IMG/VR virus record: IMGVR_UViG_3300042884_000653
Span: 1-32,357 of that record
Reading direction: 5' to 3' (one strand)
Length of the DNA: 32,357 nt
Source of the DNA: a virus
Shown here: in pieces, positions 24,948 through 29,207 of the stretch
How the letters are laid out: every line of letters begins with the position of its first letter
How positions within the stretch are numbered: the stretch's first letter is position 1
The notes under the pieces: model-generated
The model's database searches: none
What the model was told of the DNA's origin: nothing
The model's input: the letters and a program-made list of their open reading frames with translations, nothing else
Made by a program: the position numbers and the translations under genes

Positions 24948-25376
24948 TTAGTTGCTTTTGCGCTCGATCAGAGCGTCGAGTTGGACAGCTAGGGCCACCA
25001 CCGGGGTGATGAGCCTCCTCAGCCTGACCAGCCTGTTCTCATCCCATTGCTGGATCTCTTCCTCCATTTTCCTGAACCAGATCCCGAATCCTCCCATCAC
25101 CCCCTCGATGGAAAGGAACCCCGTGGCTTTCCCCCCAGGATTCAGTGACTCTTTGGGTTCTTCTGGATTCTTTAAGCCAAGATCTAGCTCAATCTGATCC
25201 CATGAATCCCTGACGAAAGGACGCTTCCATTTCTTGACCCCGATTGTGATCCAGTTCTTGTGACTGCCCTTGACCTTGGTGCTGCTAAGGGCAATCTTCC
25301 GACCGGCATCCATCCACTCGTCAACAGTGCAGGATTCCGATATAGTAATATCATCGTTTTTTATTAGTTCGCTCAT
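24948..25376 (-). CDS. Hypothetical protein, 142 aa
   Basis: Acidic N-terminus, then a charged region SHKNWITIGVKKWKRPFVRDSW and a helix MEEEIQQWDENRLVRLRRLITPVVALAVQLDALIERK. No family is recognised. The ATG at 25376 overlaps the stop of the previous gene (ATGA). Expression with the early operon suggests a replication or host-takeover role. Confidence 0.55.
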   Translation of the reverse strand: MSELIKNDDITISESCTVDEWMDAGRKIALSSTKVKGSHKNWITIGVKKWKRPFVRDSWDQIELDLGLKNPEEPKESLNPGGKATGFLSIEGVMGGFGIWFRKMEEEIQQWDENRLVRLRRLITPVVALAVQLDALIERKSN

Positions 25377-25924
25377 ATTAGTTTTTTTATTGGTTTCTTT
25401 AATGACCCACCGTGCTGTTTGTATTTCTCAACGGCATCCTGGGATTTTCCAAACTTGGTGATGTAGATCCCAAAGAAGTCCCCGGCTGCCCTTTTGTAAT
25501 GAGAGAGCAATGCCCTTGTGACCTTCATCTCCCTTGCTACCTCAGCTAGGGACCGCTTCCCGTTGAGTTGGTCGAGACCGAAGGCGAATGCTATTCCATA
25601 GACGCATGCCTTCACGTTCTTGGCCGTGAGTAAGTAGGTGAATACGCCTCCGAACATCTCCCAAGCCTGACCGGCGAGATTCTTCCTCTCCCTCTCCCGA
25701 ACCGTCAGCCCCCACTGCCCGGCACAGGCGATCACCTCCCGCATCACCAGCCAGTCGATCTGCATCTTCGAGGGGGGGATGTTCTTTTGGACGAACCAGA
25801 AGAACTCCTCTGCCAACTCATCCCCCTCCCCGTCGATCTCGGCGGCATAGTCGGGCGTGTAGGCCGACTCAGCCGTGTCATTGCTATAGGCGCGGAACGC
25901 CTCCTGGGGAGATGCAGAGATCAT
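25373..25924 (-). CDS. HTH protein, sigma-like or repressor-like, 183 aa
   Basis: Residues about 124-146 (RSLAEVAREMKVTRALLSHYKRA) make a good helix-turn-helix that resembles sigma-70 region 4 or a winged HTH. The middle part is helical (ERKNLAGQAWEMFGGVFTYLL) and the N-terminus is acidic. The C-terminus is Lys-rich (GGSLKKPIKKLI). ATG at 25924 overlaps the stop of the cysteine-rich gene. A regulator of early or late transcription is likely, but no direct evidence exists. Confidence 0.6.
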   Translation of the reverse strand: MISASPQEAFRAYSNDTAESAYTPDYAAEIDGEGDELAEEFFWFVQKNIPPSKMQIDWLVMREVIACAGQWGLTVRERERKNLAGQAWEMFGGVFTYLLTAKNVKACVYGIAFAFGLDQLNGKRSLAEVAREMKVTRALLSHYKRAAGDFFGIYITKFGKSQDAVEKYKQHGGSLKKPIKKLI

Positions 25925-26184
25925 TCCTTTTTCAGAGCCTCCAGCTTGAGCATCCGCTGACGCCGTGCCCGGGCCGCCTCGATGCACCACTGCACCTCAT
26001 CGGGGAAGTCGATCCCGGCAATGGCCAGCACCCGATCCGCCGCCACCACCGACTCGTGGCAGCAGTCGCAGAGTTCCCATGGGAAGACCTGCTCTCCACC
26101 GTCGTCGAGGGGAGTTCCGTGAACCCACTTAGCCTGAGTCAGGCAGCCGGGCATCGTGCAGATGCCGAGATTGGTGGCATTCAT
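25921..26184 (-). CDS. Cysteine-rich protein, possible zinc ribbon, 87 aa
   Basis: Cys9 and Cys14 with Cys39, Cys41, Cys42 and His43 could hold one zinc. The C-terminal half is helical and basic (AARARRQRMLKLEALKKE). The ATG at 26184 has AGGAGGTGG at the right distance and overlaps the previous stop. It ends in ATGA overlap with the HTH gene. Confidence 0.65.
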   Translation of the reverse strand: MNATNLGICTMPGCLTQAKWVHGTPLDDGGEQVFPWELCDCCHESVVAADRVLAIAGIDFPDEVQWCIEAARARRQRMLKLEALKKE

Positions 26185-26666: not shown

Positions 26667-26836
26667 AGGGCACCTCCTTCAGCTTGCAAGAGAAGTGTGA
26701 ATCCTTCACACTGCCCCCTGAAATCGACGGCCTCAATAGCACGAATTGTGAAACTCGTGTGAAACAGGTCACGATTTACAGAGTAAATCACTGCCCTGTG
26801 GTGTAACGGTAATTTGGATTTTGGTGTTTTTTTCAT
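26663..26836 (-). CDS. 57-aa basic peptide, first gene of the early operon
   Basis: The frame from 26836 is open for 57 codons (MKKTPKSKLPLHHRAVIYS at the start) and ends in GTGA with the next gene. The strongest argument for it is that stop overlap. It also contains two DNA dyads and a GTGAAAC repeat, so part of it may act as operator DNA. Other evidence for expression is lacking. Confidence 0.45.
   Translation of the reverse strand: MKKTPKSKLPLHHRAVIYSVNRDLFHTSFTIRAIEAVDFRGQCEGFTLLLQAEGGAL
26695..26711. promoter_or_regulatory. Dyad GTGTGAA-3-TTCACAC
   Basis: A perfect 7-3-7 inverted repeat within the first early gene. Same geometry as the dyad at 26773. An operator or integrase arm site is possible. 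Confidence 0.5.
26748..26765. promoter_or_regulatory. GTGAAAC direct repeat, copy 1
   Basis: GTGAAAC followed after two bases by GTGTGAAAC. Nearly the same double unit stands at 26888-26904. Confidence 0.6.
26773..26789. promoter_or_regulatory. Dyad GATTTAC-3-GTAAATC
   Basis: A perfect 7-3-7 inverted repeat. Could be an integrase core-type site (attP) or an operator. Confidence 0.4.
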
Positions 26837-26913
26837 GGTTTCTACTCTGTTAGGCTGACTTCTGCGCGGTTAGATTTCTTGCTTCATGTGAAACTGTGTG
26901 AAACTTTTCAGGC
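26837..26913. promoter_or_regulatory. Divergent promoter region between early operon and integrase
   Basis: The 77 bases hold GTGAAACtGTGTGAAAC (26888-26904) directly before the integrase ATG. A clear -10/-35 pair is not seen. Binding of a repressor here would control both directions. Confidence 0.5.
26888..26904. promoter_or_regulatory. GTGAAAC direct repeat, copy 2
   Basis: Second double unit, nine bases before the integrase start; likely operator or integrase arm site. Confidence 0.6.
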
Positions 26914-28014
26914 ATGGCGTTCTTGGTTCGCAAAAAGCGGTCCCCGTTCTGGTATGTGCGCTACCGCGATCTCGACACCCAGCGTTGGCGCGATGAGAAC
27001 CTGAAGCTGCGCGTCGATTGCCCGAAGGAGTCGGCCAAGGCCGTGAAGGAGGCGGCACGGCGTGGCTCCCAAGAGTCCATCGTCAGACCGAACAGGGGAG
27101 GGGATTTCGTCGAGTGGGTTCCCGACTACATCACCGCGCACTACAAGAACCCGCGCACTCTCCTGCGCTCCCGATACTTCTGGAGCACTGTCCATGTCTT
27201 CCTGCACGAGCAGGGGCTCCGCATGCCGAGCGAGGTCACCTACAAGCACGCCCAAGCCTACCTCGACTGGAGGAAGGGGGCCGGAGGGGAACACGCCAGC
27301 CACAATACCGCCCGTGCCGAGTTGAAATTCCTCAGCTTCCTCATGAGCGAGGCGATCCGTAGAGGGTTTGCCGAGTCGAACGGCCTCGCCCTGGCACGTG
27401 TCCCGATGACCCCTCCGAAGGAGAAGCGCGAGATCACCACTGCCGAGATCACCGCCGTGAGAAAGGCCCTGCGCGACCAGCCCGGATGGATGGCTACCGC
27501 CTTCGAGCTTCAGCTTCACCTCGGATGCCGCTTCTCCGAGACCCGCATTCCCATGGATCGGATCGACCTTAAGAGCAAGACCATCCAGATCCGAGATGCC
27601 AAGCGGCAGGAGGGAGACCCGAGGAAGTGGTTCAGCGCACCGATCAATGACCAGCTTGCCTGCTTCCTGAAGGGCATCACCCCCCATGACGGCCACACCC
27701 TGCCCGAGATCGAGCGCACGATGAACCGAGACTTCAACCGGGTGCTGGGCCGTGCGGCTAATGGATTGACGAGTCATTGTCTGCGGGTCTCCTTTATTTC
27801 ACGGCTCCATCGAGCCGGGCTCTCCGAGAGCGAAGCGATGCGACTGGTGAATCACTCGACGCGGATGGTCCACCGGCTCTACTCGAAGCTGAACGTCGAG
27901 GACGCACGGCTCGCGATGAAGCGGGTGCCGCTGCCCCCGCCTCCGCCGCCAAAAAAGCGCGCACCCAGCGCAGGGTCGTCTTCTTCCCGAAAAAAGGGCA
28001 CCCGCGCCGCTTGA
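26914..28014 (+). CDS. int: Tyrosine recombinase (integrase), 366 aa
   Basis: Catalytic residues are Arg206 (LGCRFSE), His288 and Arg291 (SHCLR), His314 (VNHST) and nucleophile Tyr323 (HRLYSKL). The N-terminus (VRKKRSPFWYVRYRDL) is an arm-binding-like domain and residues 65-155 form the SAM-like core-binding domain. It inserts phage DNA at an attB site. The last 29 residues (338-366: proline run, then Lys/Ser/Arg) are low complexity and lie over the HTH gene on the other strand. No Shine-Dalgarno precedes the ATG. The family assignment is secure. Confidence 0.93.
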   Translation: MAFLVRKKRSPFWYVRYRDLDTQRWRDENLKLRVDCPKESAKAVKEAARRGSQESIVRPNRGGDFVEWVPDYITAHYKNPRTLLRSRYFWSTVHVFLHEQGLRMPSEVTYKHAQAYLDWRKGAGGEHASHNTARAELKFLSFLMSEAIRRGFAESNGLALARVPMTPPKEKREITTAEITAVRKALRDQPGWMATAFELQLHLGCRFSETRIPMDRIDLKSKTIQIRDAKRQEGDPRKWFSAPINDQLACFLKGITPHDGHTLPEIERTMNRDFNRVLGRAANGLTSHCLRVSFISRLHRAGLSESEAMRLVNHSTRMVHRLYSKLNVEDARLAMKRVPLPPPPPPKKRAPSAGSSSSRKKGTRAA

Positions 28015-28111
28015 GCGAGGAGAGTTCCGTCGGGCTCATCCCGACGAGCGGGGCGAGGGCCTTGGGGAACTCCAGCCGGTCGAGGTCGATCATCGCGGTG
28101 GTGGATGCCAT
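27794..28111 (-). CDS. HTH excisionase-like protein, antisense to the integrase end, 105 aa
   Basis: Residues about 12-55 (FPKALAPLVGMSPTELSSLK and GKKTTLRWVRAFLAAEAG) form a winged-HTH typical of excisionases or of small DNA-binding phage proteins. After residue 58 the sequence is Ala/Ser/Arg-rich and is antisense to the integrase catalytic domain, so the functional part is the N-terminal half. The ATG at 28111 lies three bases after the RHH stop, so it is co-transcribed with that regulator. Its product may direct excision. Confidence 0.6.
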   Translation of the reverse strand: MASTTAMIDLDRLEFPKALAPLVGMSPTELSSLKRRGCPFFGKKTTLRWVRAFLAAEAGAAAPASSRAVRPRRSASSRAGGPSASSDSPVASLRSRRARLDGAVK

Positions 28112-28114
28112 GGG

Positions 28115-28312
28115 TCAGGAAACGGTTTGATCGGCGGGTTCGAGGTCTTCGTGCAGGAGATCGATGGCATCCTCGACTTTTCCGAGTCCGGCAGTGATGG
28201 CCTGTCGGAGGATCGCGGCTTCGCTGATTCCTGTCCTCTCCTTGAGGGCCTCCGTTCTGGCCGCGAGGGCTGATGGGAGCTTGATCGAAAGGGTTTTTGA
28301 TTCAGTGGTCAT
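28115..28312 (-). CDS. Ribbon-helix-helix regulator 1, 65 aa
   Basis: A CopG/Arc-like pattern: strand TLSIKLP, helix LAARTEALKERTG, turn, then helix SEAAILRQAITAGL. The start at 28312 is chosen because the domain begins there. It resembles the plus-strand neighbour (AAIL…AGL in both), so the two are paralogues. It heads an operon with the HTH gene and is the probable repressor of the lysogenic state. Confidence 0.75.
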   Translation of the reverse strand: MTTESKTLSIKLPSALAARTEALKERTGISEAAILRQAITAGLGKVEDAIDLLHEDLEPADQTVS

Positions 28313-28402
28313 GTAAGCAATATGCGTATCTTTTGTAGTGTTTCGGTTACATTTGCAATTAAAAAATGCAAAAGGTTTCAAAAATGTTACGGTGTCAAAG
28401 TC
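28313..28402. promoter_or_regulatory. Divergent operator region between the RHH genes
   Basis: Contains TTTGCA-9-TGCAAA (28352-28357 with 28367-28372) and the imperfect pair GTTACATTT / AAATGTTAC (28346-28354 with 28382-28390) around it. The nested dyads fit a RHH operator. No clear -10 box is seen. Confidence 0.55.
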
Positions 28403-28645
28403 ATGACCAAGAAAAAAACAGACCCCTACAGCCTACGCATTGACGATGAACTGAAGACCCGAATAGAACGCATCGCTAAGAAATCAGGCTTGGCCAAAGC
28501 CGCAATCTTGCAGCTTTGCGTGCGAGCGGGATTGCCGCTGCTTGAATCGGGAAAGGTTAACCTGATTGCAACTGAACCCTACCCGCTTGAAGAGGTCACC
28601 GCGCTCGGGGCTGCTGAGGCACCGAAAAAATCACGAACCCAGTGA
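28403..28645 (+). CDS. Ribbon-helix-helix regulator 2, 80 aa
   Basis: Strand YSLRIDD, helix ELKTRIERIAKKSG, helix AKAAILQLCVRAGLPLL, then an acidic/hydrophobic C-terminus. The ATG at 28403 is favoured over the upstream ATG 28322, which would read through the operator. It may oppose RHH1, as Cro opposes CI, but by a different fold. Confidence 0.7.
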   Translation: MTKKKTDPYSLRIDDELKTRIERIAKKSGLAKAAILQLCVRAGLPLLESGKVNLIATEPYPLEEVTALGAAEAPKKSRTQ

Positions 28646-28692
28646 TTTTATCCTTTCCCGACGGGCTACCTTTGTAGAACAAATGCCATCTC

Positions 28693-28959
28693 ATGAATAG
28701 CGTATTTTTTCTAGCCGATGCCGGTGGGGCTTTTGCGGCTTTCGGAGTCTTTGGGATCCTTGCCGGAGTGGTGGTGGGGGTGCTCTATGCCCTCTTCCCC
28801 CTGATCGTCATGTGGCAGATCGGCGGGGTGAAGCAGCGGATCGACCGGCAGCGCACTGAGGAATTGAAGGCCATTGCCTCAGCCACCGAGGAACTTCAGA
28901 GGCAGAACGCCCTCACCCGTCAGCTTCTCAGGGCCTACGGCCACGAGCCGGAAGCCTAG
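28693..28959 (+). CDS. Membrane protein with a coiled coil, 88 aa
   Basis: One hydrophobic segment (residues about 14-42, AAFGVFGILAGVVVGVLYAL) then a charged helix GGVKQRIDRQRTEELKAIAS with heptads. Co-oriented with RHH2 and 47 bases after it, it may be expressed from the prophage, so superinfection exclusion is a possible role. It ends in a CTAG that also serves as the stop of the gene on the other strand. Confidence 0.6.
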   Translation: MNSVFFLADAGGAFAAFGVFGILAGVVVGVLYALFPLIVMWQIGGVKQRIDRQRTEELKAIASATEELQRQNALTRQLLRAYGHEPEA

Positions 28960-29207
28960 AACTCGACGCGCCGGTAGCCGTCCTTCCAGAGGAAGTCTGT
29001 CAGGCGGGAGGCGTAGGCCCTCACCATCATCTCGCTTGCCTCGGGAATCAAGAGATGCAGGGCCTCATGGATTTTAGTGTCCAGGGCTTCTTTCGCAGAG
29101 GGATGCTTGGGATCCACCACCACCACGTCGGGAGAGATCGCCAGACCGTGAGCCCCTTCGCGACCGAGGCTGCGGTAGGTGAGCTTCAGTCGGCGGGGGA
29201 GCTTCAT
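28956..29207 (-). CDS. Small HExxH protein (metallopeptidase-like), 83 aa
   Basis: HEALH at residues 47-51 fits the zinc-binding HExxH; the flanking IPEASEMMVRAYASRLTDFL helix matches a small phage family with this motif. A third zinc ligand is not obvious. The ATG at 29207 follows a repeat leader. Last gene of the late block. Confidence 0.65.
   Translation of the reverse strand: MKLPRRLKLTYRSLGREGAHGLAISPDVVVVDPKHPSAKEALDTKIHEALHLLIPEASEMMVRAYASRLTDFLWKDGYRRVEF

Follow-up and report, generated by a model that had tools for sequence, protein, structure and literature searches.

The stretch of DNA analysed here (the window) is the 32,357-bp IMG/VR record IMGVR_UViG_3300042884_000653, taken at its full length (positions 1 to 32,357). 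Two divergent ribbon-helix-helix (RHH) genes, rhh1 and rhh2, lie at 28115-28645, and the features in and around this segment are as follows.

26773-26811, plus strand: probable attP, comprising an inverted repeat (GATTTAC-AGA-GTAAATC) and a 20-nt match to the start of a tRNA-Gln(TTG) gene
26914-28014, plus strand: tyrosine integrase gene, int (PF00589, 2e-7; PHROG 1 integrase, 3e-35)
27794-28111, minus strand: xis-like gene, downstream of rhh1
28115-28312, minus strand: rhh1, 65 aa (ATG at 28312, stop at 28115), first gene of the lytic strand
28313-28402, no strand assigned: putative divergent promoter/operator region, 90 bp, AT-rich, conserved within a cassette class and replaced between classes
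28335-28346, plus strand: GTAGTGTTTCGG, once per phage, shared by classes a and b; may be an RHH1 site or part of a promoter
28352-28372, no strand assigned: dyad TTTGCA-N9-TGCAAA, possible RHH2 operator in class a; class b has another element in its place
28392-28399, minus strand: TTTGACAC, one of eight copies of a family-wide strand-biased element
28403-28645, plus strand: rhh2, 80 aa (ATG at 28403, stop at 28645)
28580-28642, plus strand: constant C-terminal tail of RHH2, YPLEEVTALGAAEAPKKSRTQ, retained when the DNA-binding domain is swapped
28693-28959, plus strand: small membrane protein gene downstream of rhh2, in a variable slot with a rex/sie-like position

The window is a temperate tailed phage, and the hosts of its virus family are Verrucomicrobia bacteria. 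TGCCCTGTGGTGTAACGGTA (26792-26811), just 5′ of int, had an exact match in 5 of the 188 verrucomicrobial genomes searched and corresponded to the first 20 nt of the tRNA-Gln(TTG) gene in all three loci checked, which places attP at 26773-26811 and marks the phage as temperate. The closest annotated relative of the terminase large subunit was found in Akkermansia phage Moulinsart (33% identity), and relatives of the xis-like gene were present in Chthoniobacter, Spartobacteria and Verrucomicrobiaceae assemblies. A tblastn search of phage GenBank with RHH1 and RHH2 returned no relatives, so the family is absent from the annotated phage records, and a scan of genome contigs with RHH1 gave no match. 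These virus records are linear by IMG/VR class, and some may therefore be fragments.

The original prediction had called two divergent RHH genes at 28115-28312 (minus strand) and 28403-28645 (plus strand), with a 90-bp gap, and both calls held. RHH1 scored 26.9 bits (4e-6) against Pfam RHH_1, above the cut-off of 20.5 bits, and its AF2 model (pLDDT 78) had PDB structure matches that included CopG, Arc, VapB26 and PutA RHH, none of them with E<0.001. RHH2 scored 14.1 bits against the same family, under the cut-off, and its fold prediction was of low confidence and uninformative, with structure matches that contained no RHH; it is placed in the RHH superfamily, as RHH1 is by Pfam and model, through a match to PHROG 582 'Arc-like repressor' (8e-4) and through its relatives, one of which (the protein at the RHH2 position of L014) exceeds the RHH_1 cut-off. 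A PDB sequence search gave weak matches to RHH antitoxins only. Interphage dN/dS was about 0.05-0.18 for RHH1 and about 0.09-0.12 for RHH2, indicating that both are real genes under purifying selection.

An excisionase-like gene had also been predicted in the rhh1 operon; the description stands as regards HTH-like sequence and a fixed place against int, and searches of Pfam and PHROG returned no family match for this gene. By alignment, its place and its overlap with int are the same in relatives. In the window this gene and int, on opposite strands, share 221 nt at their 3′ ends (27794-28014), over the integrase C-terminal codons; across the phages and prophages examined, including L046, L048 and L049, the length of this tail-to-tail overlap ranged from about 77 to 221 nt. 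The overlap may provide antisense control of integration versus excision.

Downstream of rhh2, a conserved non-coding stretch at 28646-28680 (TTTTATCCTTTCCCGACGGGCTACCTTTGTA) is retained whatever gene comes next, and may be a promoter or terminator for that slot. The slot itself (also in L002, L004, L006 and L011) holds varied small membrane or secreted proteins, which are candidates for superinfection exclusion or lysogenic conversion. Beyond it, 28956-29207 encodes a small protein with a HEALH zinc-protease-like motif, kept in most relatives and without a family match.

Exchange of the RHH pair and the control region

A divergent RHH pair occupied the slot in every family phage examined, and on the alignments the RHH pair and its candidate operator region demonstrably move between phages as one unit. 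The swapped segment runs from the end of the xis-like gene to about codon 59 of RHH2, and includes both genes and the operator region. L015 and the window are 93% identical (aa) in int, 92% in the xis-like protein, 99% in the membrane protein and 100% in the HEALH protein; between these flanks similarity of RHH1 and of the RHH2 N-terminal domain was undetectable, and L015 carries a different divergent RHH pair. L011 and L016 likewise share the backbone and carry another cassette. DNA of L011 was 97.6% identical to the window up to 28123, had no match until 28578, and was 90.7% identical thereafter, so the exchanged segment ends on the left at the rhh1 stop codon and on the right within rhh2, where the tail YPLEEVTALGAAEAPKKSRTQ begins. 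L003 and L039 have the same backbone with another RHH2: L003 keeps RHH1 (89%) and joins a different RHH2 domain to a related tail, and L039 has yet another cassette type. The RHH2 N-terminal domain is replaced in L003, L011, L015 and L039. The converse was also observed, with the window's pair found in L002 (RHH1 94%, RHH2 N-terminal domain 95%) and L006 (74% and 75%) on backbones whose int is only 24-30% identical to that of the window (L002: int 24%, xis-like 30%). Exchange of this kind, read from sequence, is the signature of an immunity (heteroimmunity) cassette. Exchange per se is not unique to the RHH pair: mosaicism is common in these phages, and other genes are swapped too.

The RHH2 tail was 50-81% identical in most relatives irrespective of the attached RHH domain, and had dN<dS in divergent phage pairs, where the protein was conserved despite many synonymous changes, which argues that the tail has its own job; speculatively, it may serve in oligomerisation, as a protease tag or in docking of an antirepressor. 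The tail was not detected in L042; L041 and L042, in which it is absent or altered, may be natural variants with changed induction, or may reflect sequence errors.

The gene after rhh2 is reassorted as well. The same membrane gene follows different RHH2 variants in L015, L016 and L039, and is replaced in L002, L006 and L011. This bears on a reading of RHH1 and RHH2 as toxin-antitoxin or partition-type regulators with no part in lysogeny, which fits the weak matches of both proteins to RelB-like antitoxin models (far under cut-off) and of class-C RHH1 proteins to CopG_antitoxin, and which we regard as very improbable. Reassortment of the downstream gene and the RHH2 variants in both directions means that there is no cognate toxin, RHH1 is followed by the xis-like gene, PADLOC gave no match to RHH1, RHH2 or the membrane protein, and a toxin-antitoxin operon does not consist of two divergent DNA-binding proteins. 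Membership of both proteins in a toxin-antitoxin pair, the outcome that would have overturned the original prediction, was not observed, as RHH2 variants and downstream genes reassort freely and no toxin family was recognisable; the toxin-antitoxin reading was rejected for these reasons.

The intergenic gap (90-100 bp) is swapped together with the RHH pair. Nested dyads had been predicted at 28313-28402, and they exist, although dinucleotide shuffles yield dyads as good as the best of them (p 0.14). Since the dyads alone are within the shuffle range, the case for operators is built on conservation, position and uniqueness: TTTGCA-N9-TGCAAA and GTAGTGTTTYGG are conserved in L002 and L006, and each occurs a single time in the whole phage, which sets them above chance. 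A scan for sigma-70-like promoters gave 0 sites. In class a (window, L002, L006), the region contains TTTGCA-N9-TGCAAA and GTAGTGTTTYGG; in class b (L003, L004), GTAGTGTTTYGG is retained and the central element is GGCAAG..ATTGGAAAT. This pattern fits a model in which RHH2 would read the central element and RHH1 the conserved one. In the class-C phages G009 and G010, TTGGTATAC occurs exactly twice per genome, with one copy about 15 nt 5′ of each start codon and none elsewhere, and L014 has TTTGTGCC and GGCACATTGTGCC at those same two positions (GTGCC / GGCACATTGTGCC sites).

Paralogy of the two RHH proteins

RHH1 and RHH2 of the window aligned by BLASTP over most of their length (EAAILRQAITAGL / KAAILQLCVRAGL) at 27% identity (E 1e-6, single comparison), bearing out the similarity that the original prediction had taken for paralogy. 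For comparison between cassettes, phages were grouped into superclass A (window, L002-L004, L006, L039) and superclass C (L011, L014-L016, L042). Within a superclass, RHH1 and RHH2 aligned with a mean score of 67, as against means of 27 (RHH1-RHH1) and 28 (RHH2-RHH2) between superclasses, and these values support the predicted origin of the pair by duplication of a single regulator. A third superclass is represented by L046, a 66.8-kb phage whose two RHH proteins resemble each other (score 84) and no others (best score 29). In a relabelling test on seven cassettes, 9 of the 5040 relabellings reached the observed sum, a signal that stems mainly from the separate subfamilies C and E. Window RHH2 scored 105 against F1, a partner from another cassette, and 70 against its own RHH1.

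RHH pairs were also found beyond the phage family. A profile search of 286 verrucomicrobial genomes with RHH1 and RHH2 gave 12 matches, at least 5 of which adjoin a second, divergent RHH gene, and the class-C search yielded two further RHH pairs. One pair (L063) is located upstream of a gene that encodes Mu-B and TniB domains, and carries the dyad CGTATAT-N5-ATATACG; close to another (L068) are genes for a tyrosine integrase and a DUF4234 membrane protein. Not all of the host-genome pairs are clearly in prophages. When the host-genome pairs were included, paralogy was clear for superclasses A, C, E and F, and unsupported for the host-genome pairs G, H and I, in which a protein other than the partner scores best. 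For A, C, E and F these scores suggest that the pairs probably arose by repeated duplication, or by gene conversion inside a cassette; for the weaker host-genome pairs this is unproven.

A candidate lysis-lysogeny switch

The likely genes of the window divide by strand, as judged partly by inspection, with only int, rhh2 and the gene after rhh2 on the plus strand, and rhh1, the xis-like gene and all recognisable lytic genes on the minus strand. The prediction that a CI/Cro type HTH pair is missing was borne out, since ten of these phages contained neither an HTH_3 match over the cut-off nor a peptidase S24 domain, in a search that found P22 c2 as a positive control (9e-19 and 7e-34). Given this strand logic and the lack of an HTH_3/S24 repressor, the lysogenic repressor is taken to be RHH2, with RHH1 opposing it on the lytic side; RHH2 would probably correspond to CI and RHH1 to Cro, an assignment made by strand logic only. 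The proposal of a lysogeny switch, made in the original prediction, gains support from this strand logic, from the lack of a CI-type repressor in the ten phages and from cassette exchange with matching candidate operators, and we consider it likely, as far as this can be read from sequence, that this temperate verrucomicrobial phage has the core of its lysis-lysogeny switch and superinfection-immunity cassette at 28115-28645.

In the proposed mechanism, RHH2, co-transcribed with a variable moron-type membrane gene, would be the lysogenic repressor and specificity determinant, binding the control region and shutting off the rhh1 promoter. That promoter would start the lytic strand, reading rhh1, the xis-like gene, antisense to int, and then the early genes, and RHH1 would shut off rhh2 in Cro-like fashion, so that mutual repression by sister proteins could give two stable states. 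Given the tail-to-tail overlap of int with the xis-like gene, rhh1-side transcription would be antisense to int, and antisense RNA together with the Xis-like protein may favour excision over integration. The constant RHH2 tail would be used by the induction machinery or for oligomerisation, regardless of the DNA-binding domain to which it is joined.

The lytic early genes begin past int, at a distance of about 1.4 kb, and a separate promoter for them could lie near 26,670-26,900. This distance, and the restriction of the candidate operators to the switch region, would suit a pair that governs only int/xis and the moron, with the lytic operon independent. Such integration control appears improbable, as swapping of a regulator with its operator is selected for by superinfection immunity and is unexpected for a mere int/xis regulator.

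The closest known layout to that of the proposed switch is the immI region of P22 (NC_002371), where Mnt and Arc are likewise two mutually similar, divergent RHH repressors whose genes are 90 bp apart (mutual alignment score 93, versus 70 for the window pair). There the longer RHH protein is lysogenic, the shorter lytic, and the operators lie within the gap (PMC7549136), and immI is a secondary immunity region beside c2/cro (PMC8022706, PMC7549136). immI controls ant and is located inside the late region, whereas the window has no ant and no c2/cro, and its pair adjoins int and the xis-like gene. Similarity of RHH1 and RHH2 to Arc and Mnt was at background (scores 17-31), with only the generic PHROG Arc-like match, giving no sign of orthology. 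On these three grounds (no ant, no c2/cro, background similarity), the window pair is immI-like in layout and is not an immI member.

The pair could nevertheless act as immI does, controlling an antirepressor or moron while a main repressor elsewhere keeps lysogeny. P22 employs exactly such a gene pair and geometry in a secondary role (PMC8022706), and no function is known for about 87% of PHROG families, so a non-canonical repressor could be missed; an unrecognised repressor elsewhere is conceivable, and the early gene at 25373-25990 has a weak HTH in relatives. We nevertheless judge this secondary role unlikely: HTH_3 over the cut-off and S24 were absent from the ten phages with the P22 control positive, no Ant-like gene adjoins the RHH pair, the pair directly adjoins the int/xis-like block and heads the lytic strand, and besides int and the moron no further plus-strand lysogeny gene is evident.

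Read as the main switch, the cassette resembles lambdoid immC (CI-Cro), which also has two divergent repressors, a short common operator region and exchange as a cassette, with the lysogenic repressor followed by a moron (cI-rexAB) and the lytic one heading the early operon, the same layout as proposed here. Exchange of repressor and operator together (heteroimmunity) is seen here as a sequence pattern only. The fold is RHH rather than HTH, no SOS-cleavable S24 domain is present, both partners are clear paralogs, and the candidate operators are in a single shared region only. Mu repressors are HTH-type. In L063, the divergent RHH pair upstream of the MuB-like gene occupies the place of c/ner in Mu, and both of its proteins are RHH instead. 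In the archaeal virus SSV1, the RHH protein F55 is a CI-like lysogeny repressor (PMC5569661); it is a single RHH protein with tandem-repeat operators at several early promoters in an archaeal host, and the account of it describes no divergent paralog partner (PMC5569661).

Evenly balanced, in our estimate, is the wider claim that a divergent paralogous RHH pair is the sole lysogeny switch and defines a distinct temperate-phage immunity class, with specificity cassettes on a constant RHH2 tail, at least three independent duplications, and members in both integrating and Mu-like phages of Verrucomicrobia. In the part of the literature that was searched for RHH-pair lysogeny switches, only P22 Arc/Mnt and SSV1 F55 were found, and no system uniting a sole-switch role with cassette exchange and repeatedly paralogous pairs turned up. 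If the reading as a main switch is right, an arrangement known as a side module of P22 would be the main decision circuit in a phage family of a poorly studied phylum, and the sister-repressor pairs would be a natural experiment in building a bistable switch by duplication of a single regulator. With the sets of swapped RHH domains and candidate operators, RHH-DNA specificity and heterodimer avoidance could be tested directly, and the cassettes would predict immunity groups among uncultured phages.

A strand-biased 8-mer

TTTGACAC, one copy of which falls in the control region, is independent of the RHH cassette. Its eight window copies are on the minus strand (plus-strand coordinates 4020, 9975, 12406, 13215, 15293, 17149, 19552 and 28392), and it is the most strand-biased 8-mer of the family, with all 55 occurrences in 11 records (window and 10 related phages; 324 kb) on the coding strand. 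A role as a cassette-specific RHH operator or stoperator was rejected, since class-C phages such as G009 have equally many copies, and a role as promoter was rejected because the element ends just 12-16 nt ahead of many start codons. Copies lie between late genes, often 12-16 nt 5′ of a start codon and often 3′ of a hairpin, and resemble the start-associated sequences of Cluster K mycobacteriophages (PMC3203893) or the L5 stoperators (PMC9283540).
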